Shown piece by piece: positions 41,970 through 57,212 of a stretch of DNA of 64,000 bases (within the stretch, counting starts at the first letter, position 1; every line of letters begins with the position of its first letter). Location: contig NZ_FZPC01000002.1 of the NCBI RefSeq assembly GCF_900187975.1, positions 186,001 through 250,000 on the forward strand, written 5' to 3'. A program made the position numbers and the translations under genes. The notes under the pieces were generated by a model. That model made no database searches, was not told the origin of the DNA, and saw nothing but the letters and a program-made list of their open reading frames with translations. This stretch comes from Pseudomonas delhiensis. GTDB lineage: Bacteria; Pseudomonadota; Gammaproteobacteria; Pseudomonadales; Pseudomonadaceae.

Positions 41970-42076
41970 GTAGGAGCGGGCCCTGCGCGCGAAATCGCGG
42001 GCAGGGCCCGCTCCTACAGGTTGATGCCGAACCTCTCGTCCGCACCGGACAGCTCCCTCTCCCTTCAGGGAGAGGG
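41970..42076. repeat. REP hairpin and CT-rich palindrome
   Basis: The 419-base gap after the cytochrome holds a REP hairpin (41970-42017, GTAGGAGCGGGCCCTG ... CAGGGCCCGCTCCTAC) and a CT-rich palindrome (42055-42076). In 42077-42341 I see only the ribosome binding site AGGAGG of the next gene and no convincing promoter. Confidence 0.85.
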
Positions 42077-42341
42077 TAAGACATCTCCCGACACACCGGC
42101 ACAACCGGGAGGCGCCGATCACAGGCATCCCATCTTCTCCCGCCTGTCACGCTGCAAGGTCTAGGCTAATCCAGCCGGCACACCTCATCGCGCCCCATTT
42201 CCGTGCACCCCCATGCCCGGCATGCGCCCCCGGGCCCCGCGATGGTGCCCGGCGCCCATGCGCAGCCCGTTCCACGGCCCCTGGCGGCTGGCACGGGACT
42301 TGCGCGGAAGCTGTGTCGCCCAGGCCCGCAGGAGGCCCGTC

Positions 42342-45300
42342 GTGTCGATCCATGTCGCCTTGCAGCACGTCACCCACTACCGCTACGACCGCGCCGTGAA
42401 CCTCGGCCCGCAGCTGGTGCGCCTGCGCCCGGCGCCGCACAGCCGCACGCGCATTCTCGGCTATTCGCTGAAGGTCGCCCCGGGCAAGCACTTCATTAAC
42501 TGGCAGCAGGACCCCCAGGGCAACTACCTGGCGCGCCTGGTGTTCCCGGAGAAGACCGAGGAACTGCGGGTTGAGGTGGACCTGGTCGCCGAGATGGCGG
42601 TGTTCAACCCCTTCGACTTCTTCCTCGAGCCCTACGCCGAGCAGTTCCCCTTCGCCTACGGCGCCGACGAGCAGCGCGAGCTGGCGCCCTACCTGGCGCG
42701 CCAGCCGGCCAGCCCGCGGTTCGCCGAATACCTCGCCGGGGTGCCGCGCGAGGCCAGCCCCACCGTGGACTTCCTGGTCGCGCTGAACCAGCGCCTGGCC
42801 GGCGACGTGCGCTACCTGATCCGCATGGAGCCCGGCGTGCAGACGCCCGAGCAGACCCTGGAACTGGCCTCCGGCTCCTGCCGCGACTCGGCCTGGCTGC
42901 TGGTCCAGCTGGCGCGCCACCTGGGCCTGGCGGCGCGCTTCGTCTCCGGCTACCTGATCCAGCTCACCGCCGACCAGAAGTCCCTGGACGGCCCCAGCGG
43001 CACCGAGGTGGACTTCACCGACCTGCACGCCTGGGCCGAGGTCTACCTGCCCGGCGCCGGCTGGGTGGGGCTGGATGCGACCTCCGGGCTGTTCGCCGGC
43101 GAAGGCCACATCCCCCTGGCCTGCAGCCCCGAGCCGTCCTCCGCGGCGCCCATCAGCGGCGCGCTGGAGGAGTGCGAGGTGCAGTTCAGCCACGAGATGC
43201 GCGTGGAGCGCGTGTGGGAAGCGCCGCGGGTGACCAAGCCCTACAGCGAGGAACAGTGGCAGGCGATCCGCGAGCTGGGTTCGCGCATCGACGCCGACCT
43301 CGCCGAGCAGGACGTGCGCCTGACCATGGGCGGCGAGCCGACCTTCGTCGCCATCGACCATCCCGACGACCCCGAGTGGAACACCGCCGCCCTGGGCCCG
43401 AACAAGCGCCGCCTGGCCGCCGACCTGTTCCACCGCCTGCGCCGCCACTACGCACCCAAGGGCCTGGTGCACTTCGGCCAGGGCAAGTGGTACCCCGGCG
43501 AACAGCTGCCGCGCTGGTCGCTGAACTGCTTCTGGCGGCGCGACGGCGAGCCGCTGTGGAACAACCCCATGCTCTATGCCGAGGAAGGCCGCAGCTACGG
43601 CGCCGACGCCGCCCTGGCCGCGCGCTTCCTGCGCCGTCTGGCCGGGCGCCTGGGGCTGTCCGGCGACACCCTGTTCGCCGCTTACGAGGACTGGTTCTAC
43701 TACCTCTGGCGCGAACGCCGGCTGCCGGCCAACGTCACCCCGGAAGACGCGCGCCTGAGCGATCCGCTGGAACGCGAGCGCCTGTGCAAGGTATTCGAGC
43801 GCGGCCTGGGCGAGGAAGTCGGCCAGGTGCTGCCGCTGGCCCGCAGCGCCGCCGGCGACGCCTGGGAGAGCGGCCGCTGGTTCCTGCGCGGCGAGCATTG
43901 CCGGCTGATTCCCGGCGACTCGGCCATGGGCTACCGCCTGCCGCTGGACTCGCAGCCCTGGGCCAGCGACGCCGACTACCCCTACGTCAACCCGGCCGAC
44001 CCGAGCGTGGCCCGGCCGCCGCTGCGCCGCGCCGCGCAGATGCAGCAGCCGAGCCGCGAACGTACCCCGGGCGGGCCGGACGCCACGCGCCAGCCGCTGA
44101 TGCACCAGTCCGCCGGCTGGATCACCCGCACCGCGCTCTGCGCCGAGCCGCGCGACGGCCGCCTGTACCTGTTCATGCCGCCGCTGGCGGAGCTTGAGGC
44201 CTACCTGGAGCTGGTCGCCGCCATCGAGGCCACCGCCGGCGAGCTGGGCTGCCCGGTGCTGCTGGAAGGCTACGAGCCGCCGGCCGACCCGCGCCTGGTG
44301 AACTTCCGCGTCACCCCCGACCCGGGCGTGATCGAAGTGAACATCCACCCCTCGGCGAACTGGGACGAGCTGGCCGAGCGCACCGAGTTCCTCTACGAGG
44401 CGGCGCGCCAGTCGCGGCTGTCCAGCGAGAAGTTCATGGTCGACGGCCGCCACGTCGGCACCGGCGGCGGCAACCACTTCGTCCTCGGCGGCGCCACCCC
44501 GGCGGATTCGCCCTTCCTGCGCCGCCCGGACCTGCTGCGCAGCCTGGTCAGCTACTGGCACAACCACCCCTCGCTGTCCTACCTGTTCTCCGGCCTGTTC
44601 ATCGGCCCGACCTCCCAGGCACCGCGGGTGGACGAGGCGCGCAACGACGCCCTCTACGAACTGGAGGTCGCCTTCGCGCAGATGCCCGAGCCGGGCGCCG
44701 ACTGCCCGCCCTGGCTGGTCGACCGCCTGCTGCGCAACCTGCTGGTGGACGTCACCGGCAACACCCACCGCGCCGAATTCTGCATCGACAAGCTGTACTC
44801 GCCGGACAGCGCCTCCGGACGCCTCGGCCTGCTGGAGCTGCGCGCCTTCGAAATGCCGCCCCACGCGCGCATGAGCCTGGCCCAGCAACTGCTGCTGCGG
44901 GCCCTGGTGGCGCGCTTCTGGGCCGAGCCCTACGCGCCGCCGAAGCTGGTGCGCTGGGGCACCGAGCTGCACGACCGCTTCCTGCTGCCGCACTTCGTCG
45001 AGCAGGACTTCGCCGACGTCATCCACGAGCTCAACGCCTTCGGCTACCCGCTGCGCAGCGACTGGTTCGCGCCGCACTTCGAGTTCCGCTTCCCGAAATA
45101 CGGCGACTACGCGGTGAAGGGCATCGACCTGGAACTGCGCCAGGCCCTGGAACCCTGGCACGTGCTGGGCGAGGAGGGCGCCAGCGGCGGCACCGTGCGC
45201 TACGTGGACTCGTCCCTGGAGCGCGTGCAACTGAAGGTGAGCGGCATGGCCGCGGAGCGCTACGTGGTCACCTGCAACGGCCGCCCGGTGCCGCTGCGGC

Positions 45301-45629
45301 CCACCGGCCAGGTCGGCGAATACGTCGCCGCGGTGCGCTACCGTGCCTGGCAGCCGGCCTCCTGCCTGCAGCCGACCATCGGCGTGCAGGCACCGCTGGT
45401 CTTCGACATCGTCGACACCTGGATGCAACGCTCCCTCGGCGGCTGCCAGTACCACGTCAGCCACCCCGGCGGGCGCAGCTACGACAGCTTCCCGGTGAAC
45501 GCCTACGAGGCCGAGAGCCGGCGCCTGGCGCGCTTTTTCCGGCATGGCCACACGCCCGGCAAGATGAGCGTGGAGGCGCCGCGCGCCGACGCCGAATCGC
45601 CGATGACCCTCGACCTGCGGCGGACATGA
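42342..45629 (+). CDS. transglutaminase-like / DUF2126 fusion protein
   Basis: A 1095-residue protein. The N-terminus (about 4-85, [20 protein letters not shown]) is a Transglut_N domain, followed by a transglutaminase/papain-like core with a complete triad: C180 (GSCRDSAW), H229 (DLHAWAEVY) and D245 (GLDATSG). From about residue 320 the DUF2126 region begins ([13 protein letters not shown]), with conserved blocks [30 protein letters not shown] and [16 protein letters not shown]2126 has been linked to amidoligase-like folds; I rely on memory for that. GTG at 42342 has AGGAGG 6 bases upstream; the longer frame starting at 42213 lacks this. First gene of a three-gene operon. It lacks a signal peptide, so it is probably cytoplasmic. 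Confidence 0.87.
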
Positions 45630-45679
45630 GCGCCGCCGCCCGCTAAAGTGAACAGGCCGCCTTGCACGCCGAGTCCCTG

Positions 45680-48178
45680 ATGTCCGAGTTGCTCGCCCAC
45701 TACCCGCTGTCCGCCACGGCGTACCACGAACTGCTGGACGCCGCGGGCGGCGTGCGCCCGCACTGGCAACGCCTGGTCCAGCGCCTGGAGCGCGCCAGCG
45801 CCGCGCAGCTGGAGCAGCGCCAGGCCCTGCTGGCGCGGCAGATCCAGGAAAACGGCGTGACCTACAACGTCTACGCCGACCCCAAGGGCGCCGACCGCCC
45901 CTGGGAACTGGACCTGCTGCCCAACCTGCTGTCCGCCGGGGAGTGGGCGGGCATCGCCGCCGGCGTGGCGCAGCGTGGGCGGGTGCTCAATGCGCTGCTG
46001 GCCGACCTCTACGGCGAGCAGCGCCTGCTCGCCCAGGGCGTGCTGCCCAGCGAACTGGTCTACGGCCACCCCAACTTCCTCTGGCCCTGCAGCGGCCTGC
46101 CGGTGCCCGGCGGCATCTACCTGCACAGCTATGCCGTCGACCTGGCGCGCGATGCCGACGGCCGCTGGCACGTGCTCGCCGACCGCACCCAGGCGCCCTC
46201 CGGCGCCGGCTACGCCCTGGAGAACCGGCAGATCATCTCCCGCGCCCTGCCGGAGCTGTACCGTGAACTGCGCGTGCAGTACCTGGCCGGCTACTTCCGC
46301 ACCCTGCAGGAAACCCTCGCGCACTGCGCCCCGGCCGACGGCGAGACGCCGCTGGTGGTGCTGCTGACCCCGGGGCGCTTCAACGAAACCTACTTCGAGC
46401 ACCTGTACCTGGCGCGCCAGCTGGGTTTCCCGCTGGTGGAAGGCCACGACCTGACGGTGCGCGACGCCACCCTGTACCTGAAGACACTCGGCGGCCTGAA
46501 GCGCGTCCACGCGGTGCTGCGGCGCCTGGACGACGACTTCTGCGACCCCCTGGAGCTGCGCACCGACTCCGCCCTCGGCGTGCCCGGCCTGCTGGATGCC
46601 GTGCGCCGCGGCCGCGTGCTGGTGGCCAATGCCCTGGGCAGCGGCGTGCTGGAATCGCCGGGGCTGCTGGGCTTCCTGCCCGCGGCCAGCCGCGCGCTGT
46701 TCGGCGAGGACCTGCTGCTGCCGGCGGTGCAGACGCGCTGGTGCGGCGAGCCGGGCGCCCTGGACATGGCGCTGGCCGAACTGGACCGCCTGGTCATCAA
46801 GCCGGCCTTCCCCTCGCAGAGCTTCGAACCCCTGTTCGGCCACACCCTGGGCCCGGCGGCCCGCGCCGAGCTGAGCCAGCGCCTGCGCGCGCAGCCCCAT
46901 GCCTACGTGGCGCAGCGCCAGGCGCAGCTGTCCCAGGCGCCGGTCTGGCAGCAACGCGGCGCGCGCGGCGAGCTGCAATCGCGCGCCATCGGCATGCGCG
47001 TGTTCGCCGTGGCCGGCAGCGACGGGCGCTACTGGGTGATGCCCGGCGGCCTGACGCGGGTGGCCTCGGCGGCGGACGCCGAGGTGGTCTCCATGCAGCG
47101 CGGCGGGGCCAGCAAGGACACCTGGGTGCTGGCCGACCGCCCGGTCCACGGCGAGCCCCTGCGGCCGCGCAACATAGGCGCGCGCGACCTGATCCGGCAG
47201 GACCCGTACCTGCCCTCGCGGGTGGTGGAGAACCTCTACTGGTTCGGCCGCTACGCCGAGCGCTGCGACGACAACGCCCGGCTGCTGCGCGTGGTGCTGT
47301 CGCGCTACGTCGACGCCGACGGCGACGAGCAGGCCCTGCGCAGCGCGCTGGACCTGGCCGGCGCCATGGGCCTGATCCCCCAGGGCGAGGCGCCGCTGGA
47401 GCAGCGCCTGCTGGCGGCCCTGCTGGACGAGCACTGGGGCAACAGCCTCAGCGCCAACCTGCGCCGCCTGCACTGGGCCGCCGCCCAGGTGCGCGGGCGG
47501 CTGTCGCGGGAGAACTGGCTGGCGCTGATGGAACTGCAGCGCGACCTGCAGGCGCTGGACGCGCGCGACACCGAACTGGGCGACGCCCTGGACTTCCTCA
47601 ACCGCCTGCTGATGTCGCTGGCGGCGCTGTCCGGCTTCGCCCTCGACGACATGACCCGCGACGATGGCTGGCGCTTCCTGATGATCGGCCGGCGCATCGA
47701 GCGCATCCAGTTCTTCGCCGACGCCATCGCCGGCTTCCTCGACGGCGGCGCCGCCTGGGACCCGGGCGCCCTGGAGTGGCTGCTGGAACTGGGCAACAGC
47801 ACCATCACCTACCGCTCGCGCTACCTCGCCGGGCCCCAGGCGATCCCGGTGCTCGACCTGCTGTTGCTGCACGAGCAGAACCCCCACGCCCTGTACTTCC
47901 AGCTGCAGGCCCTGGAGCGCTCCCTGGAGCGCCTGCACCAGGAGTTCGGCATGCCCCGCGAGCAGGAACTGACGCTGCTCACCGCGCGCCTGCTGGCCTT
48001 CGACTTCGCCACCCTGGAGAACGCGCTGTTCGGCAGCGCCGGGCAGGACGAGGTGCTCGCCGGCCTGGCGCGCCTGCTGCGCGAACTGGCGCAAGGCGCC
48101 GGCCAGGTCTCCGACCGCCTGGGCCTGCGCTACTTCGCCCACGTCGACGACATCAGCCAGCGCACGGTATCCACCTGA
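45680..48178 (+). CDS. circularly permuted ATP-grasp / alpha-E fusion protein
   Basis: An 832-residue protein. The first part (about 40-480) matches the circularly permuted ATP-grasp type 2 family (older DUF404/DUF407), with VTYNVYADPKG, LLTPGRFNETYFEH and VIKPAFPSQSFE. The second part (about 505-820) is the alpha-E (DUF403) helical domain, beginning with the typical ENLYWFGRYAERCDDNARLL. The domains are often separate genes, here fused. An ATP-grasp fold implies formation of an amide or peptide bond by an acyl-phosphate intermediate; the substrate is unknown. I use the ATG at 45680 rather than an upstream TTG. The 3' end overlaps the next gene by one base (TGATG). Confidence 0.87.
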   Translation: MSELLAHYPLSATAYHELLDAAGGVRPHWQRLVQRLERASAAQLEQRQALLARQIQENGVTYNVYADPKGADRPWELDLLPNLLSAGEWAGIAAGVAQRGRVLNALLADLYGEQRLLAQGVLPSELVYGHPNFLWPCSGLPVPGGIYLHSYAVDLARDADGRWHVLADRTQAPSGAGYALENRQIISRALPELYRELRVQYLAGYFRTLQETLAHCAPADGETPLVVLLTPGRFNETYFEHLYLARQLGFPLVEGHDLTVRDATLYLKTLGGLKRVHAVLRRLDDDFCDPLELRTDSALGVPGLLDAVRRGRVLVANALGSGVLESPGLLGFLPAASRALFGEDLLLPAVQTRWCGEPGALDMALAELDRLVIKPAFPSQSFEPLFGHTLGPAARAELSQRLRAQPHAYVAQRQAQLSQAPVWQQRGARGELQSRAIGMRVFAVAGSDGRYWVMPGGLTRVASAADAEVVSMQRGGASKDTWVLADRPVHGEPLRPRNIGARDLIRQDPYLPSRVVENLYWFGRYAERCDDNARLLRVVLSRYVDADGDEQALRSALDLAGAMGLIPQGEAPLEQRLLAALLDEHWGNSLSANLRRLHWAAAQVRGRLSRENWLALMELQRDLQALDARDTELGDALDFLNRLLMSLAALSGFALDDMTRDDGWRFLMIGRRIERIQFFADAIAGFLDGGAAWDPGALEWLLELGNSTITYRSRYLAGPQAIPVLDLLLLHEQNPHALYFQLQALERSLERLHQEFGMPREQELTLLTARLLAFDFATLENALFGSAGQDEVLAGLARLLRELAQGAGQVSDRLGLRYFAHVDDISQRTVST

Positions 48179-49113
48179 TGGCCGAAGCCCAGCTCCGCCC
48201 CGCCCCCGCGCAAGTGGCGCGCTACCAGGTGTTCCACGACACCCGCTACCGCTATGCCGCGCCGGTGTCGCTGTCGCAGCAGCTGCTGCACCTGTGGCCG
48301 CGCGAGTGCCCCTGGCAGCGCTGCCTGGGCCGCGAACTGCAGATCGAGCCGCAGCCCACCCAGCGCAGCGACGGTTTCGACGTGTTCGGCAACCCGCTGA
48401 CGCGCCTGGCCTTCGAACGCCCCCACGACGAGTTGCAGGTGAACGCCCGCCTGCAGGTCGAGGTGCTGCAGCGCCCGCCGCTGCAATTGCAGGCCTCGCC
48501 GGCCTGGGAACGGGTAGTCGCCGGCCTGGCCTTCAGCGGCCGCGCCCTGTCGGCGGAAGAACTGGAAGCCTGCCGCTTCCGCATGGAATCGCCCTACGTG
48601 CGCATCAAGCGCCAGTTCGCCGAGTTCGCCGCCGACTGCTTCCCGCTCGGGCGGCCGCTGCTCGAAGGCGCGGCGGCGCTGATGCAGAAGATCTTCGACG
48701 AATTCGCCTTCGACGCCGAAGCCACCCAGGTGGCGACGCCGCTGATCGAGGTGCTGGAACGCCGCCGCGGCGTATGCCAGGACTTCGCCCACCTGATGCT
48801 CGCCTGCCTGCGCTCGCGCGGCCTGGCCGCCCGCTACGTCAGCGGCTACCTGCTGACCCGCCCGCCGCCCGGCCAGCCGCGCCTGATCGGCGCCGACGCC
48901 TCCCACGCCTGGGTGTCGCTGTACTGCCCGGCCAACGGCTGGGTGGACTTCGACCCCACCAACAACATCCTCCCGGCCCTGGAACACATCACCCTGGCCT
49001 GGGGCCGCGACTTCGCCGACGTCTCGCCGCTGCGCGGGGTGATCCTCGGCGGCGGCAGCCACGACCCCGAGGTGCGGGTGACGGTGATGCCGCATTGGGA
49101 GCTGGCGGTGTAG
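48178..49113 (+). CDS. transglutaminase-like peptidase of the ATP-grasp/alpha-E operon
   Basis: A 311-residue protein with an N-terminal beta-strand Transglut_N domain (YQVFHDTRYRYAAPVSLSQQ) and a transglutaminase core with an intact triad: C200 (GVCQDFAH), H243 (DASHAWVSLY) and D257 or D259 (WVDFDPTNN). Bacterial proteins of this type are thought to be peptidases or amidases more than crosslinkers. There is no signal peptide. It is the last gene of the operon, starting inside the stop of the ATP-grasp gene. Confidence 0.9.
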   Translation: MAEAQLRPAPAQVARYQVFHDTRYRYAAPVSLSQQLLHLWPRECPWQRCLGRELQIEPQPTQRSDGFDVFGNPLTRLAFERPHDELQVNARLQVEVLQRPPLQLQASPAWERVVAGLAFSGRALSAEELEACRFRMESPYVRIKRQFAEFAADCFPLGRPLLEGAAALMQKIFDEFAFDAEATQVATPLIEVLERRRGVCQDFAHLMLACLRSRGLAARYVSGYLLTRPPPGQPRLIGADASHAWVSLYCPANGWVDFDPTNNILPALEHITLAWGRDFADVSPLRGVILGGGSHDPEVRVTVMPHWELAV

Positions 49114-49448: not shown

Positions 49449-49700
49449 TCAGGCCTTCCGATGGGCCTCCATGTAGCGGCGCAGCAACTGGTTGATGCGC
49501 GTCTGGTAACCGCTGCCCTGGGCCTTGAACCACTCCAGCACGTCCGCGTCCAGGCGGATGGTGACGGTCTGCTTGGCCGGGACGCGCAGTTCGGCGTGGC
49601 GGAAGAAGTCCTCGCCCAGTTCGGGAATGTCACTGGTGTCGATGGCATCGTCGCCCTGTTCCACCAGCCGCTTCCAATCAGTCTTCGATGCTTTCGACAT
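49449..49700 (-). CDS. brnA: BrnA-type antitoxin
   Basis: An 83-residue protein with an N-terminal linker and a C-terminal ribbon-helix-helix DNA-binding part (VTIRLDADVLEWFKAQGSGY, then QTRINQLLRRYME), as in BrnA. It neutralises BrnT and represses the operon. It follows brnT with a 23-base overlap, the usual toxin-first order of this system. Confidence 0.88.
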   Translation of the reverse strand: MSKASKTDWKRLVEQGDDAIDTSDIPELGEDFFRHAELRVPAKQTVTIRLDADVLEWFKAQGSGYQTRINQLLRRYMEAHRKA

Positions 49701-49956
49701 AGCGCCTCACCTCCTGGCGTGTGGCCTTGCGCGCCGAGATGATGCGGATCACCTCGCCCCGTCGTTCGGTATAGACCACCACGCCGACGAGCCGCCGGAG
49801 CCAGCCGATGGCTATCCAGCGCTCTTCGTCGTAGTCGAGTCGGTCATCGCGCAAGGCCAGCAGCGGGTGCTGGAAGATTTCCGGCACGTCGCGGAAATCG
49901 ATACCGTGCTTGCGGATGTTGGCCTGGTTCTTGGCCTCGTCCCATTCGAACTGCAT
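49678..49956 (-). CDS. brnT: BrnT-type ribonuclease toxin
   Basis: A 92-residue protein starting MQFEWDEAKNQANIRKHGID, the characteristic BrnT N-terminus, and ending with the RIISARKATRQEVRRYVES block. BrnT has a RelE-like fold and cleaves RNA. The ATG at 49956 is chosen over the longer frame because homology begins there and because the palindromic operator lies directly upstream. Confidence 0.9.
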   Translation of the reverse strand: MQFEWDEAKNQANIRKHGIDFRDVPEIFQHPLLALRDDRLDYDEERWIAIGWLRRLVGVVVYTERRGEVIRIISARKATRQEVRRYVESIED

Positions 49957-50979: not shown

Positions 50980-51216
50980 CTTCCGAATGCGTTTTCCTAC
51001 GCCGTTGGGGATGGGCGGTCGCCAATCCTCGACAGCCGGTGAGCGCGCAGGAGCTTTCCTGCCGGCATAGGAAATTTCACCTTCCCCCGAGTGGGGAGGC
51101 CCCGCTGAAGCTGGCGATTCATCCTGCATATTCCCCCCCGCCGACAAGCGCACCCTGGGGTGGACCTCGACCGGCGCCTCCCGCACCGGTCGCCGTCTTC
51201 ATCGCCCGGGGGCCCG

Positions 51217-51681
51217 ATGCCACGCCATTCACGCTTCGCCGCTTTCAGCCTGATCGAGTTGCTCGTCACCCTGGCCGTGCTGGCCATCACCGCTGCCATC
51301 GCGGTGCCCGGCCTCACCCAACTGATACGCAACCAGCAGGTGCAGGGCGCCGCCCAGGAGCTGTACTCGCTGTTGCTTTATACCCGCAGTGAGGCGGCCA
51401 GCCGCGGGCGCTCCGTCACACTGAGGCCGGCCCAGGGCAGCGCCTGGACCGGTGCCCTGGCGGTGACGGCTGGCAGCACCAGCCTGCGGCAGGTGGCGCT
51501 GCGTGACGCTGTCGTCCTGGCCAGCGCTGCCAACAGCATCGTCTTCCGCGCCGATGGGCGCTTGGGCGGCAACGCGACCTGCATCAGCATCTGCCCGGCC
51601 GTGGACGGCGCGGCCTGCCAGCGCATCCGCATCCTCGCCAGCGGGCAGATAGCCTTGCCGGCCAGCGGGGGCTGCTCATGA
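51217..51681 (+). CDS. FimT/FimU/GspH-type minor pilin
   Basis: A 154-residue type IV minor pilin. The N-terminus has the prepilin-like segment AFSLIELLVTLAVLAITAAI, with Glu at position 5 of the mature protein but Ala in place of the usual Gly at position -1. The globular part shows the GspH/FimT pattern and has C-terminal cysteines (CISICPAVDGAAC, GGC). It is the first gene of the pilV-W-X-Y1-E cluster and overlaps pilV (ATGA). I cannot decide between FimT and FimU. Confidence 0.85.
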   Translation: MPRHSRFAAFSLIELLVTLAVLAITAAIAVPGLTQLIRNQQVQGAAQELYSLLLYTRSEAASRGRSVTLRPAQGSAWTGALAVTAGSTSLRQVALRDAVVLASAANSIVFRADGRLGGNATCISICPAVDGAACQRIRILASGQIALPASGGCS

Positions 51682-52211
51682 GGGCCGCGTGCGCAGGCGC
51701 CGGCCTGATCGAGGTGCTGGTGGCGCTGCTGGTGCTGACGGTGGGCGGCCTGGGCATGCTCGCCCTGCAGTCGCGGGCGGTGCAGAACACCCAGGAGGCC
51801 ACGCTGCAGGGCAACGCCGTGATGCTCGCCCACGACCTGCTGGAGATGATGCGCAGCAACCGCGACGCTGTGCTCGACGCGACGGGGCAACTGGACGGCG
51901 TGTCGTCGTATTTCAAGGCCGAGAGGGCGGCCTTTCCAGCCATACCCACAAACTGCGGGACGCGGGAGCGGGGCAGCGGTGGCGACGAGGTCGCGGCCGC
52001 TGACCTCGGCTGCTGGCGTGGCCGGATCGAGCGCTTGCTGCCGGTGACGCCAGGCATCCTGACGAATGATTTCGCGGTCTGCCGCAGCGCTTCGGACGAA
52101 ACCTGTTCCGACGCCGGCTCCCTGGTGATGATCCGCGTCGCCTGGGCCGACGAACGCTCGAAAATGTGCGACGGGGGCGTGTGCAGCTACGTGCTGCGCG
52201 CGGAGTTGTGA
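51678..52211 (+). CDS. pilV: type IV pilus minor pilin PilV
   Basis: A 177-residue prepilin with a short leader ending in Gly, then AGLIEVLVALLVLTVGGLGM with Glu5 and the PilV-type hydrophobic helix. The following sequence (LQSRAVQNTQEATLQGNAVM) matches the PilV N-terminal domain. PilV works with PilW, PilX, FimU and PilE to prime pilus assembly. Overlaps the FimT-type gene by 4 bases; pilW starts one base after its stop. Confidence 0.9.
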   Translation: MRAACAGAGLIEVLVALLVLTVGGLGMLALQSRAVQNTQEATLQGNAVMLAHDLLEMMRSNRDAVLDATGQLDGVSSYFKAERAAFPAIPTNCGTRERGSGGDEVAAADLGCWRGRIERLLPVTPGILTNDFAVCRSASDETCSDAGSLVMIRVAWADERSKMCDGGVCSYVLRAEL

Positions 52212-52212
52212 A

Positions 52213-52971
52213 ATGAGGAACTCTCATCTGCAGCATGTCCAGCAGGGCCTGTCGCTGGTCGAGCTGATGGTGGCGCTGCTGCTCGGCAGCGTGCTGATCA
52301 TCGGCGTCACCCAGCTGTTCCTCGACCAGAAGCGCCACGCCCAGTTCCAGTTCGGCCAACTGGCCAACCAGGGCAATGCCCGTTTCGCCACCCACGCCAT
52401 CGAGCGCCTGGTGGCCCGCGCCGGCTACCGGGCCAAACCCCAGGCGCAAATACCCGAGGAAGCCTTCCCGGCACGGGTAGCCGTCCATGGCTGCCCGGCT
52501 TTCACCTCCGGGCAGACGCTGGCCCTGGCCCAGGGCGGCAAGAGCGCGGCCTTGTGCGTGCGCTACCAGCGTGGCCTGGAGGCGCAAGAGGCAGACTGCG
52601 GCGGAACGTCGCTGCCCTTCTCCACGCAACCGCTCAACGTGGTCGCCCGCCTGGCGCTGGACAGCAATGCCGGAGAGCTGACTTGCGCCGCCTTCGTCGA
52701 AGGCGGAAGCGGCCCCGGCTCTGCCAGCGTGCTGGTCGAGGACCTGGTGGATTTCAGCTTCCAGCCGCTTTCCGATAGCGCCGAGCAAGTACAGCAGCTC
52801 GGTCTGTACTTGCTGTTCGCCGGCAAGGGCGGCCAGGGCGATGGCATCGCCAGCGGGGTGCGCGGCGACTGGCAGGCACTGAGTGGCCGAGCCCCCGCCG
52901 TCGCCGCCAGCGATACCCGTCCATTGCAGATCGCCATTGCCGCCATCGCCCAGAGGAGCCTGAAGCCATGA
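52213..52971 (+). CDS. pilW: type IV pilus minor pilin PilW
   Basis: A 252-residue prepilin with cleavage motif QQG-LSLVELMVALLLGSVL and PilW-type downstream sequence (VTQLFLDQKRHAQFQ). It belongs to the priming complex of the pilus. The stop overlaps the start of pilX (ATGA). Confidence 0.9.
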   Translation: MRNSHLQHVQQGLSLVELMVALLLGSVLIIGVTQLFLDQKRHAQFQFGQLANQGNARFATHAIERLVARAGYRAKPQAQIPEEAFPARVAVHGCPAFTSGQTLALAQGGKSAALCVRYQRGLEAQEADCGGTSLPFSTQPLNVVARLALDSNAGELTCAAFVEGGSGPGSASVLVEDLVDFSFQPLSDSAEQVQQLGLYLLFAGKGGQGDGIASGVRGDWQALSGRAPAVAASDTRPLQIAIAAIAQRSLKP

Positions 52972-53543
52972 ATGTCCGTGCAAGCGCAACGGTCCAGGGC
53001 GGCGCCGTGCTCATCGTGGCGCTGGTCATGCTGCTGCTGATGACCCTGTTGGCCCTGTCCGGCATTTCCGCCAGCCAGCTGGAGTTCCGCCTGGCCGGCA
53101 ACCGCGCGGAACAGGTGCGCGCCTTCAATGCGGCCGAGTCGGCTTTGCGCAGCGTCGAGCGACGCCTGGCGGATATCGCCGGCAGCGACGACCTGCGCGG
53201 CACCAGTTGCGCCGGGCGCCAGGGCCTATGCGTGTTGCAGGTGGGCAGCGTGCGGAGCGTCAACGCTCAGGGCGCCTGGCAGTGGGGCTGGCGCAGCGAT
53301 CCGGGGGCATGGTGGGAGAAGGCGCAGAACGCCATCGACTACGACGGCCAGGACGGCTTCGAGCGGACGCTGCGCCAGCACGCCGCCTACTTCGCCAGCG
53401 ATGGCGACGGCCTGAACCTGGGCAACCTCGACGAACCGCAACTGCGCACCGACTACTACTACGCCGACGCCTATGCCGGGAGCGATGACGGGCGCACGCC
53501 GGTGCTCCTGCAATCGGTCTTTGCCCGGCGCTACGTGAACTGA
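52968..53543 (+). CDS. pilX: type IV pilus minor pilin PilX
   Basis: A 191-residue protein with an N-terminal helix (QGGAVLIVALVMLLLMTLLA) that has a Gly before the cleavage position but no Glu5, as is usual for Pseudomonas PilX. The rest carries the PilX pattern (FRLAGNRAEQVRAFNAAESA). It is thought to link PilY1 to the tip complex. pilY1 begins 10 bases later. Confidence 0.9.
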   Translation: MNVRASATVQGGAVLIVALVMLLLMTLLALSGISASQLEFRLAGNRAEQVRAFNAAESALRSVERRLADIAGSDDLRGTSCAGRQGLCVLQVGSVRSVNAQGAWQWGWRSDPGAWWEKAQNAIDYDGQDGFERTLRQHAAYFASDGDGLNLGNLDEPQLRTDYYYADAYAGSDDGRTPVLLQSVFARRYVN

Positions 53544-53552
53544 GGAAAGCCG

Positions 53553-56500
53553 ATGAGCCTTCGCCTCCACTACCCCCGTCTCCTCCTTGGCCTGGCCGCG
53601 CCCTGGATAATCACACCGGCGAGCGCCGATAAGCTGCACATCAGTCAGCAGCCGCTGTTCCTCAGCCAGACGGTGGCGCCGAACCTGATCCTGACGATGG
53701 ACAGTTCCGGCAGCATGTGGGATGCCTATGTCCCCGATGACATCGAGAGGGACGCCTATAGCCGCCGGGCCAAGTCGGCCAGCTACAACGCGATGTACTA
53801 CAACCCCCGGCTGACCTACCGGGTGCCGAAGCAGGTCGGGTTCAGCAACGGCCAACTGACAGTGGGTGAATACCCTGTCAGCCAGGGCGGCGGCTTCGAT
53901 TTCACCCAGGTCAGGCGCAACGGTTTCGATGAACGACGCCAGACGGTCGACCTGGCCAGCGAGTACCGGGTGACCTGGAGTTATTCCCCGGATTCGTCGA
54001 GCGATTCCAGGACGGCGCTGCATCCCGAAAGGGATTTCAAACGCAGCGTCTCGCTGTCCTACGACGGGCAGACCTGGAGTGATGACCTTGCTCCCGGTCT
54101 GACGCTGAAGATCAAGCGTACGGGGCGGGACTCATGCGAGGCCCATCTCGATGGCAGGAAGGTCACCTGTTCCGAACACAAGTCGAAATACACGGTAGAC
54201 CTGACCAACAAGGGCGTACCGGCCTACTACTACAGGTTCGACCAGACGCAGTCTGGCTGCTCGGCGTCCGCGACTGATAACGACAACTGCTACAAGCTGG
54301 TCAAGGTCAGCGCGAACTCCGGCCCGAACGGCGAGGACGAGCGACAGAACTTCGCTATCTGGTATGCCTTCTACCGTAACCGCGCCCTGGCGACCCAGAG
54401 CGCCGCCAACCTGGCCTTCAACACCCTGCCCGAGTCCATCCGGCTGACCTGGCAGGATTTGGGCCGTTGCAGCCAGCTCAATGGGCAGTGGGGGTGCAAC
54501 GGCATCAGCTACAGCGGCGGCAATCTGCTGCGTCCATTCGCCAAGAAGCACCGCGCGGACTTCTTCCACTGGCTGTCGAGCGTCAATTTCAGCGGCGGTA
54601 CGCCCCTGCGCCAGGCGCTGGACCGGGCCGGCAAATTCATCGCCGACGAGGACGGCCCAGCCTACGACTTCGAGCCCGGCGGCAAGCAGGAGCCTAAATT
54701 CACCTGTCGCCCCAGCTACCACCTGATGATGACCGATGGGCTGTGGAACGGCAGGGGAGGCTCGGTGGGCGGCAACGTCGATGGTAATGGCAGGACGTTG
54801 CCGGATGGCACTCGCTACGCGGCCCGTTCGCCCTTCAAGGATGGAGCGAAGGACACCCTGGCCGACCTGGCCTTCCACTACTGGGCCACCGATGCGCGCA
54901 CGGACCTTGCCAACGAGCTGAAGCCCTACGTCGCCTTCTCCCAAACGGACGCCACCAGGCAATACTGGGACCCGCGCAACAACCCGGCGACCTGGCAGCA
55001 CCTGGTGACCTTCACCATGAGCCTGGGCCTGGGGCAGTCGCTGGTCAGCCCGAAATGGGCGGGCGGCACCTTCGAGGGGGCCGGCTACCAGGGCCTGGCC
55101 AACGGCAGCATCGCCTGGCCGCCGGCGAAGTCCAACGACAAAAACAACGTCTACGACCTCTGGCACGCTGCGATCAACTCCCGCGGCGAGTTCTTCAGCG
55201 CCGAGGACCCGCAACAGATGGTCGACGCCTTCGCCAGCATCCTCTCGCGCATCGCCAATCGCACCGCCTCGGCGGCGCGGCCGGCGGTGGCGGCCGGCGA
55301 GGTGAAGGACCAGGCGCATGTCTACGTCGCCTCCTTCTCCAGCGAGGACTGGAGCGGCGATCTGGTCAAGTACCTGCAGCCGGCGAACGCCGGCCGGCAG
55401 CAGCTGTGGAGCGCCAAGGCGCTGCTCGACGCGCGCAAGAGCCCGCGGCGGATACTCATGGGCAAGGGCAAGACCCTGGTGGACTTCGCCTGGAGCAACC
55501 TCGACAGCGGGCAGCGGCGCGCCTTCAACCAGACGCTCTCCGGCGACCAGGACTCCCGCGGCGAAGCGCGCGTGCAGTACCTGGCCGGCAAGCGCGACCT
55601 CGAAGGGAGCGAGTTCCGCAGGCGCGGCGGGCTGCTCGGCGACATCGTCAATTCGGCGCCGCTGCTGGTGACGGCGCCGTCCCGCCCGGCGCTGCCGCGC
55701 GACCGCCTGGAGAGCCCCGGCAATGGAGGCCTGAGCAGCAAGGACAACGCCTACAGCGAATTCAAGGCGGCGCAGGCCTTGCGGCGCAGCATGATCTACG
55801 TCGGCGCCAACGACGGCATGCTGCACGCCTTCGACGCTGAGACCGGCGAAGAGGTCTTCGCCTTCGTGCCCCGTCCCGCCCTGGCCGGCATGTACCGGTT
55901 GACCGACCCGCGCTACACCAGTGCGGAGCATCGCTACCTGGTGGACGGTCCCCTGGTCGCCGAAGACGTGTTCTTCGGCGGTGCCTGGCGCAGCGTGCTG
56001 GTCGGCGGCCTCGGCGCCGGCGGCCGCGCGCTCTTCGCTCTGGATGTCACCGACCCGCAGCAGCCGAAGTTGCTCTGGGAGATCGAAGGCGGCGCCGGCC
56101 CGTTCGCGCGCCTCGGCCATACCCTGGCGCGCCCGGTCATCACCCGCCTGCACAGCGGCCAGTGGGCGGTGCTGGCGGCCAACGGCTACGACGGCCTGCA
56201 GGACATGGCAGTGCTCTACCTGATCGACATCGCCACCGGCGCGTTGCTGCACGAACTCAACGTGAGCCAGGGCGGCGATGCCGCCAACGGCCTGTCCAGC
56301 CCCCGCGCTGCGGACATGGACGGCGACGGCATCGTCGACCACGCCTACGCCGGTGACCTGCTCGGCAACCTCTGGCGCTTCGACCTCTACAAGGCTACCA
56401 GCCAGGACGGATATGGCGGCCCCGACTCCGCCAGCGCCGCGGACTACCGGGTCGGGCTGGCTGGCCGGCCGCTGTTCCGCGCCCGCGACGCCTCCAGCAA

Positions 56501-57212
56501 TGTCCAGCCCATCACCGCGGCACCCTGGCTGGTCCGCCATCCCTCGGGACAGGGCGTGCTGGCGCTGCTGGGAACCGGCAAGTACTTCGAGGTCCACGAC
56601 GCCGAGGCCGACACCAGCCGAGCGATGAGCCTCTACGGCATCTGGGACAGGCTGGTCGCGGGAGAGCAGGGTGGCAACGACTCGACGGTGATGCGCAACA
56701 GGCTGCAGGCCCAGACGTTCAGCGAGACCACCGACAGCTACCGAAGCCTCAGCAGCAATCCGCTGGCCTGGGCGCCCGCTGCGCAGAAGCCCGGCTCGGG
56801 CGGCAACGGCAAGCATGGCTGGCTGCTGGACCTGCCGAAGACCGGCGAGCAGGTCGTCGCCGACCCGGCCAGCAGCGGCCGGCTGGCATTGTTCGCCACA
56901 CTGACGCCGAACGCCGACCCCTGTCAGGATGGCGTCAGCACCTGGTTGCTGGCGCTCAACCCTCTGACTGGCGGGGCGCCGCTGACGGACGCGCTGGACT
57001 ACAACAACGACGGTGTGGTCGATGCGCAGGACCGTGTCGACGGCAACAAGGTCGCTGGCGTGCTGCTGCCCGGCGGCCTGGGCGGGGCGTCCCTCGGCTT
57101 CGACCTGTCCAGCGGCCTGGGTGTCGCCCATGGCAGCGACGGGGCGGTGCGCTTCTACGACGGCATCCGCCCGGGCCGGCAGAGCTGGCGCCAGATGGAG
57201 GCATCCGAATGA
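53553..57212 (+). CDS. pilY1: type IV pilus tip adhesin PilY1
   Basis: A 1219-residue secreted protein: signal peptide to about residue 25, a von Willebrand A-like domain with the MIDAS motif D50-S-S-G-S (ILTMDSSGSM), a long variable region, and a C-terminal beta-propeller (about 650-1200) typical of PilY1. Calcium-binding loops are visible: DMDGDGIVD near residue 925 and DYNNDGVVDAQD near residue 1150. PilY1 sits at the pilus tip, opposes retraction and signals surface contact. It overlaps pilE by 4 bases. The first third reads less GC-rich and uses more rare codons (AGG, ATA) than the rest. Confidence 0.93.
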   Translation: MSLRLHYPRLLLGLAAPWIITPASADKLHISQQPLFLSQTVAPNLILTMDSSGSMWDAYVPDDIERDAYSRRAKSASYNAMYYNPRLTYRVPKQVGFSNGQLTVGEYPVSQGGGFDFTQVRRNGFDERRQTVDLASEYRVTWSYSPDSSSDSRTALHPERDFKRSVSLSYDGQTWSDDLAPGLTLKIKRTGRDSCEAHLDGRKVTCSEHKSKYTVDLTNKGVPAYYYRFDQTQSGCSASATDNDNCYKLVKVSANSGPNGEDERQNFAIWYAFYRNRALATQSAANLAFNTLPESIRLTWQDLGRCSQLNGQWGCNGISYSGGNLLRPFAKKHRADFFHWLSSVNFSGGTPLRQALDRAGKFIADEDGPAYDFEPGGKQEPKFTCRPSYHLMMTDGLWNGRGGSVGGNVDGNGRTLPDGTRYAARSPFKDGAKDTLADLAFHYWATDARTDLANELKPYVAFSQTDATRQYWDPRNNPATWQHLVTFTMSLGLGQSLVSPKWAGGTFEGAGYQGLANGSIAWPPAKSNDKNNVYDLWHAAINSRGEFFSAEDPQQMVDAFASILSRIANRTASAARPAVAAGEVKDQAHVYVASFSSEDWSGDLVKYLQPANAGRQQLWSAKALLDARKSPRRILMGKGKTLVDFAWSNLDSGQRRAFNQTLSGDQDSRGEARVQYLAGKRDLEGSEFRRRGGLLGDIVNSAPLLVTAPSRPALPRDRLESPGNGGLSSKDNAYSEFKAAQALRRSMIYVGANDGMLHAFDAETGEEVFAFVPRPALAGMYRLTDPRYTSAEHRYLVDGPLVAEDVFFGGAWRSVLVGGLGAGGRALFALDVTDPQQPKLLWEIEGGAGPFARLGHTLARPVITRLHSGQWAVLAANGYDGLQDMAVLYLIDIATGALLHELNVSQGGDAANGLSSPRAADMDGDGIVDHAYAGDLLGNLWRFDLYKATSQDGYGGPDSASAADYRVGLAGRPLFRARDASSNVQPITAAPWLVRHPSGQGVLALLGTGKYFEVHDAEADTSRAMSLYGIWDRLVAGEQGGNDSTVMRNRLQAQTFSETTDSYRSLSSNPLAWAPAAQKPGSGGNGKHGWLLDLPKTGEQVVADPASSGRLALFATLTPNADPCQDGVSTWLLALNPLTGGAPLTDALDYNNDGVVDAQDRVDGNKVAGVLLPGGLGGASLGFDLSSGLGVAHGSDGAVRFYDGIRPGRQSWRQMEASE

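Follow-up and report, generated by a model that had tools for sequence, protein, structure and literature searches.

A DUF2126, ATP-grasp/alpha-E and transglutaminase operon of Pseudomonas delhiensis with a conserved sigma54-type promoter and a candidate role in amide ligation

Gene content of the operon

Three consecutive genes, here called P1, P2 and P3, occupy positions 42342–49113 of a 64,000-nt stretch of the Pseudomonas delhiensis genome (the window; assembly GCF_900187975.1, contig NZ_FZPC01000002.1, positions 186,001–250,000 of the forward strand). All three lie on the + strand according to the list of open reading frames (ORFs) and to Pfam, and the stop codon of P2 overlaps the start of P3 in a TGATG junction. 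An initial annotation, made from the DNA letters alone, had described this arrangement and named the domain set, and both are borne out by the ORFs and the Pfam matches. The features of the locus are as follows.

42190–42207, + strand: NtrC-like dyad 1, GCGCCCCATTTCCGTGCA; conserved block in an alignment of 28 upstream regions, and half-site counts
42233–42249, + strand: NtrC-like dyad 2, GGCCCCGCGATGGTGCC; same evidence
42289–42303, + strand: sigma54-type -24/-12 promoter TGGCAC-N5-TTGC, TGGCACGGGACTTGC; sequence match and conservation
42330–42335, + strand: ribosome binding site AGGAGG, read 5' of P1 and kept in the 28-upstream alignment
42342–45629, + strand: P1, GTG start; transglutaminase-like domain fused to DUF2126 (about 43167–45620); Pfam
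about 45680–48178, + strand: P2, permuted ATP-grasp (about 45920–47065) fused to alpha-E (about 47210–48136); Pfam
46799–46840, + strand: changed ATP loop of P2, KPAFPSQSFEPLFG; the Anbu-operon-like type of ATP-grasp has K..GSGGYG at the same place
48178–49113, + strand: P3, transglutaminase-like, Bact_transglu_N and Transglut_core; Pfam

P1 matches Bact_transglu_N (residues 6–84), Transglut_core (136–246) and DUF2126 (PF09899; 276–1093, 1359.8 bits), and its DUF2126 part is 93% identical to the P. knackmussii B13 counterpart. The start of P2 is ambiguous between ATG at 45680 and TTG at 45662; counted from 45662, the ORF matches CP_ATPgrasp_2 (6.3e-152) and Alpha-E (PF04168, 2.3e-68), confirming a circularly permuted ATP-grasp joined to alpha-E. 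No NCBIfam model matches any of the three proteins at E 0.001. Both of the complete Cys-His-Asp triads proposed at the outset hold up across homologues: C180/H229/D245 is present in all 141 aligned P1-type sequences and C200/H243/D259 in 116/116 of the P3 type, for which reason D259 is preferred over D257 as the P3 aspartate.

A conserved sigma54-type promoter

The sigma54-type site TGGCACGGGACTTGC lies 53 bases 5' of the P1 start and no other exact TGGCACN5TTGC occurs in the window. Sites with at most one mismatch number five in the window, which is not above chance, and the exact motif occurs 23 times in the 6.7 Mb genome, compared with 7 occurrences of the reversed pattern. Of 88 DUF2126 upstream regions from genomes of the Pseudomonadaceae, one starts at a contig end; among the other 87, 81 have a site with at most one mismatch 52–78 bases before the start codon. 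Outside a zone of 48–58 bases, a scan of 37,512 positions gave 12 such matches, ten of them already-counted sites at 62–78 bases. We also collected 140 DUF2126 loci that include Pseudomonas and extend as far as Verrucomicrobia, Planctomycetes and Acidobacteria (at least one genome is included twice; genes were labelled by best BLAST hit). A sigma54-type site is found within 250 bases in 43 of these (30/127 outside Pseudomonas), versus 37/2720 background windows.

Two blocks further upstream read GCNCC-N5-(G/C)GTGC, resembling the NtrC consensus. In zones picked after the 28-upstream alignment had been viewed, 35 of the 81 loci have a GTGC half-site 86–96 bases 5' of the sigma54 site (dyad 1) and 41 have one 42–52 bases 5' of it (dyad 2); control windows gave 16–21 of 81 between and beside the two zones and 1–11 further out. 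These elements offer a strong sequence clue that the operon may be under sigma54/NtrC regulation, one that was absent from the initial annotation. This conserved promoter of the nitrogen type points to a definite condition, nitrogen shortage, in which to seek the product.

Published data on relatives also concern nitrogen. Genes I35_5080-83 of Burkholderia cenocepacia (DUF404/407, DUF403, transglutaminase and large transglutaminase) are among the common targets of sigma54 and NtrC (PMC5491218). In P. putida, PP_2686-2688 of the Anbu operon are induced 11- to 15-fold by nitrogen limitation, which the authors credit to NtrB/NtrC, and PP_2685 rises only 1.12-fold in the wild type (PMC7801951). 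Expression of PP_2685 and PP_2688 is higher on nitrate than on ammonium, and the PP_2688 promoter shows a 3.7-fold response to nitrogen depletion (PMC8050072). In marine metagenomes, Bact_transglu_N, DUF403, DUF404 and DUF407 cluster with domains of urea metabolism (PMC3597751).

DUF2126 as a candidate ligase

The structure prediction that had been proposed for DUF2126 yielded a model with a glutamine synthetase (GS) fold. All 50 matches listed by Foldseek for this AlphaFold2 model, and all 50 listed by VIA, are GS-family chains; those listed include gamma-glutamylmethylamide synthetase (GmaS; 7cql and 9qur) and a naphthylamine-GS, together with 9n4x and 5dm3. The alignments, which also bear on the predicted circular permutation of the GS-like ligase, span only 213–274 residues. 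Candidate catalytic residues are kept in 140–141 of 141 sequences. A 24-sequence DUF2126 profile searched against the PDB at E ≤ 1 retrieved only two transglutaminase-domain sequences and no GS match.

GS makes its amide bond through an acyl phosphate. Because of the predicted GS fold, and because the glycine loop is lost in P2 (below), we assign the ligase role to DUF2126 rather than to the ATP-grasp: as modelled, DUF2126 is the likely amide-forming enzyme. This shift tells which protein to assay first. DUF2126 occurs in 120 of the 398 sampled genomes of the host phylum, in 88/198 of the family and in 5/25 of the genus. The word DUF2126 was absent from the literature searched, which was mostly open access, and no assigned substrate was found there.

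The fused ATP-grasp and alpha-E protein

The ATP-grasp part of P2 matches structure 3n6x at 1.4e-91. It nevertheless departs from the ATP-grasp type of Anbu operons at the nucleotide loop, where the window protein retains the lysine (K373) but reads KPAFPSQSFEPLFG. A GGxG loop is present in 1/124 fused-type and 53/54 Anbu-operon-like sequences, and the lysine before it in 64/124 and 54/54, respectively. Elsewhere in the pocket, R182, E239, D256, D288, N316, R439 and D479 (numbered from codon 45683) are found in 122–124 of the 124 fused-type sequences and may serve metal or substrate. Of 123 positions that are at least 96% conserved in the Anbu-operon-like type, 46 carry an unchanged residue in at least 90% of fused-type sequences. 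A pocket is thus under purifying selection, and the nucleotide loop is not.

The initial annotation had held that one enzyme of the set forms an amide bond, and had named loss of the ATP-binding residues of the ATP-grasp as evidence that would count against it. The glycine loop is indeed gone, which for this domain counts in part against that view; the lysine and pocket residues are kept. An amide-forming enzyme is retained in our reading, but the loop counts make the ATP-grasp less likely than DUF2126 to be that enzyme. Loop loss would account for a negative ATP assay on fused P2. The literature searched on this domain set, mostly open access, contained no study of P2-type loop loss or of the promoter of a window-type operon.

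The alpha-E part is predicted to be all-helical (predicted local distance difference test score, pLDDT, 92.3), and fold comparison of the model gave no reliable match. Alignment of one half to the other shows them to be homologous (hhalign probability 98.2%, E 3.9e-13, 144 columns), and each contains one GRxxER motif; judged from these alignments, alpha-E is an internal duplication.

Linkage across genomes

Of the 140 loci, 126 contain the ATP-grasp/alpha-E fusion alongside DUF2126 and 124 contain the third gene type, which argues that the grouping is not due to chance. Other companions are an Anbu-operon-like ATP-grasp (60 loci) and Anbu (7 loci). In six of the 14 loci without the fusion, the sequence stops no more than 2.7 kb from DUF2126. 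Across the 398 phylum genomes, alpha-E is found in 120/120 DUF2126 genomes and 212 genomes overall; at least two copies are present in 111/120 DUF2126 genomes versus 12/278 others, and an Anbu match in 76/120 versus 69/278. The co-occurrence pattern whose absence would have spoken against the original proposal is thus present. The Pfam domains and the linkage across loci support membership in the predicted ATP-grasp, GS-like, transglutaminase and alpha-E system, of which, as an uncharacterised ligase/tagging system, the window operon is an ordinary, widespread member.

Some loci depart from or add to this pattern. At L173 and L183, DUF2126 adjoins Anbu and an Anbu-operon-like ATP-grasp/alpha-E pair, with no fusion, which suggests one combined system. 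In G120:C1:2103995-2106444 (L130), DUF2126 is split over two frames and the remaining operon genes are kept. A gene encoding a zinc ribbon and Peptidase_Mx, assigned from one Pfam-tested member, lies near DUF2126 in 20/140 loci (L180, L186, L275 and 17 others), within 250 bases in 17; its product may be an additional protease of the system. A short-chain dehydrogenase gene, likewise assigned from one Pfam-tested member, is found in 13/140 (L249, L254, L263, L268 and nine others), no more than 400 bases from the cluster and in the same orientation. Genes for an ABC-transporter ATPase (16 loci) and an aldehyde dehydrogenase (15 loci) recur at scattered or distant places only. Among small ORFs of 22–95 codons near the 140 loci, the 14 largest groups (13 confined to Pseudomonas, one without Pseudomonas) contained no shared tag candidate, in a short-ORF BLAST comparison that is insensitive.

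A separate Anbu operon in the genome

A PF00227 search of the genome found two genes, on contigs C30 and C74, and none in the window, in agreement with the initial annotation, which had seen no Anbu gene there and had proposed looking elsewhere in the genome. The C30 gene is probably HslV-like. The C74 gene encodes Anbu and stands next to a further set of ATP-grasp, alpha-E and transglutaminase genes, forming a second, separate operon with its own exact sigma54-type site (C74:5230-5244). Its translation retains T1, D17 and K32, the residues named for Yersinia bercovieri Anbu (PMC6376114). Near the contig end, a tandem repeat of about 780 bases (G000:C74, L123; approximately 98–880 and 882–1660) covers the 3' part of Anbu and downstream sequence; the second Anbu piece, residues 98–244, is 98% identical. 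The duplication could be genuine or an artefact of assembly.

Flanking features

By eye, an inverted repeat resembling a repetitive extragenic palindromic (REP) element was seen at 41970–42020, in the interval that separates the preceding gene from the promoter region. Just 3' of the operon, at 49678–49956 on the - strand, lies a gene for a BrnT-type ribonuclease toxin (PF04365, 4.6e-28). Further on, the region 51160–57212 contains ORFs that by eye resemble type IV pilus minor pilins, followed by PilY1 (PF05567, 1.3e-79).

Proposed function and alternatives

We propose, with a probability of about 0.5, that the operon is a nitrogen-starvation-induced module for amide ligation and transamidation. 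Under nitrogen limitation, phosphorylated NtrC would bind the two upstream dyads and activate sigma54 RNA polymerase. The DUF2126 part of P1 would turn a carboxylate into an acyl phosphate and join it to an amine, and the papain-like transglutaminase domain of P1, together with P3, would hydrolyse or transfer the resulting amide. P2, because its phosphate-binding glycine loop is lost, is cast as an altered or non-ATP-dependent partner rather than as a ligase, and might hold the substrate with its duplicated helical alpha-E part. The ATP-grasp with an intact loop lies in the C74 Anbu operon, and most likely the two operons cooperate.

Several observations weigh against this proposal. The sigma54 site is not recognisable in 6/87 Pseudomonadaceae upstream regions, all from two genera, or in 97/140 of the wider loci, and three genomes (G011, G027 and G043) keep the promoter before P2-P3 with no DUF2126 match. 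The NtrC-like sites are degenerate. For the DUF2126 model, Foldseek gave no match at E ≤ 0.001 (best 1.2e-3, template modelling (TM) scores 0.18/0.34), and the best VIA Z score, 9.8, is little above the 7–8 that the tool calls usual without a clear match. Some ATP use by P2 may be possible given the lysine and conserved pocket retained in the window protein, and 44/120 DUF2126 genomes have no Anbu match. In a P. putida rpoN mutant, PP_2686-2688 are induced 14.16-, 16.02- and 19.61-fold, compared with 12.61-, 11.04- and 14.66-fold in the wild type, and urtA is likewise induced, 11-fold (PMC7801951, Table 2). Because the mutant rises like the wild type, induction of the P. putida Anbu operon did not require sigma54 there, and we lowered our estimate from 0.55 accordingly.

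One alternative, which we regard as rather unlikely, is a small-molecule route of the gamma-glutamylation type in which amines or unusual peptides are the nitrogen source, DUF2126 acts as the ligase and the transglutaminase domains act as amidases; its logic is that of PuuA/PuuD or GmaS. The GS fold fits such a route, as do the GmaS and naphthylamine-GS chains among the listed matches, the nitrogen-type promoter, the dehydrogenase gene close to the cluster in 13 loci and the grouping of related domains with urea metabolism in marine metagenomes (PMC3597751). That dehydrogenase is missing at most loci, however, and the transporter ATPase and aldehyde dehydrogenase are scattered or distant. Moreover, two transglutaminase domains and alpha-E are not known to have a role in established amine routes.

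Protein tagging seems to us similarly improbable. DUF2126 and an ATP-grasp would here attach a small peptide tag to proteins; the transglutaminase domains and Anbu would take the tag off again or degrade the proteins that bear it, recycling protein nitrogen during starvation. Such a scheme reportedly goes back to a comparative-genomic prediction of 2009, and it is consistent with the enrichment of Anbu in DUF2126 genomes, the T1, D17 and K32 residues of the C74 Anbu and the Peptidase_Mx-type gene that 17 loci have no more than 250 bases from the cluster. It is weakened by the lack of a shared tag candidate among the small-ORF groups and by the DUF2126 genomes in which Anbu was not matched. Furthermore, Anbu of Y. 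bercovieri, Hyphomicrobium and P. aeruginosa did not act as a peptidase on standard substrates, nor was a specific complex of Y. bercovieri Anbu with its operon partners found (PMC6376114).

It is also doubtful that P2 is an active ATP-dependent ligase that makes the main amide bond despite its changed loop, with DUF2126 as a second, sequential ligase: the seven conserved pocket residues and K373 would favour this, as would the release of phosphate from ATP by the Y. bercovieri Anbu-operon ATP-grasp (PMC6376114), but that enzyme is, judging from its operon, of the intact-loop type, and GGxG is absent from 123/124 fused-type sequences, with the lysine in only about half.

Returning to the ligation and transamidation module, a bolder extension, to which we give less credence than to any of these alternatives, would join the two operons in one nitrogen-starvation circuit: DUF2126 would build an amide, which might be a protein or peptide tag, the P2 pseudo-ligase would present the substrate, and Anbu and the transglutaminase domains would dismantle the product. 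If true, this would be a nitrogen-controlled ubiquitin- or Pup-like cycle derived from glutamine-synthetase-type chemistry.

Comparison with known systems

DUF2126 shares its predicted fold with the glutamine synthetase family, but is about 825 residues long, has 7–15% identity in the aligned parts and is fused to a transglutaminase domain. Structure 3n6x, a putative glutathionylspermidine synthase related in sequence to the ATP-grasp part of P2, differs from P2 in its intact GSGGYG loop and in its 474-residue chain, which stops where alpha-E would start.

Iyer et al. are said to have predicted in 2009 a peptide-tagging or peptide-synthesis system composed of a permuted ATP-grasp, a GS-like DUF2126, alpha-E, transglutaminase and Anbu. 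The window holds the ATP-grasp, GS-like, alpha-E and transglutaminase families of that system, and Anbu is encoded in the same genome. Here, however, the components are divided between two separate operons, the ATP-grasp of the window is fused to alpha-E and lacks the ATP loop, and conserved sigma54/NtrC-type elements lie upstream.

The Anbu operons of P. putida (PP_2685-2688) and Y. bercovieri share the ATP-grasp, alpha-E and transglutaminase families with the window operon, but they include Anbu, have no DUF2126 among their four genes and carry ATP-grasp and alpha-E unfused (PMC7801951, PMC8050072, PMC6376114). They correspond to the C74 operon of this genome rather than to the window operon. 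The I35_5080-83 cluster of B. cenocepacia H111 is NtrC- and sigma54-dependent under nitrogen limitation, and its ATP-grasp and alpha-E, in contrast to those of P2, are listed as separate genes (PMC5491218). Judging from the Burkholderia locus L253 in our set, the large transglutaminase of that cluster is probably a DUF2126 protein.

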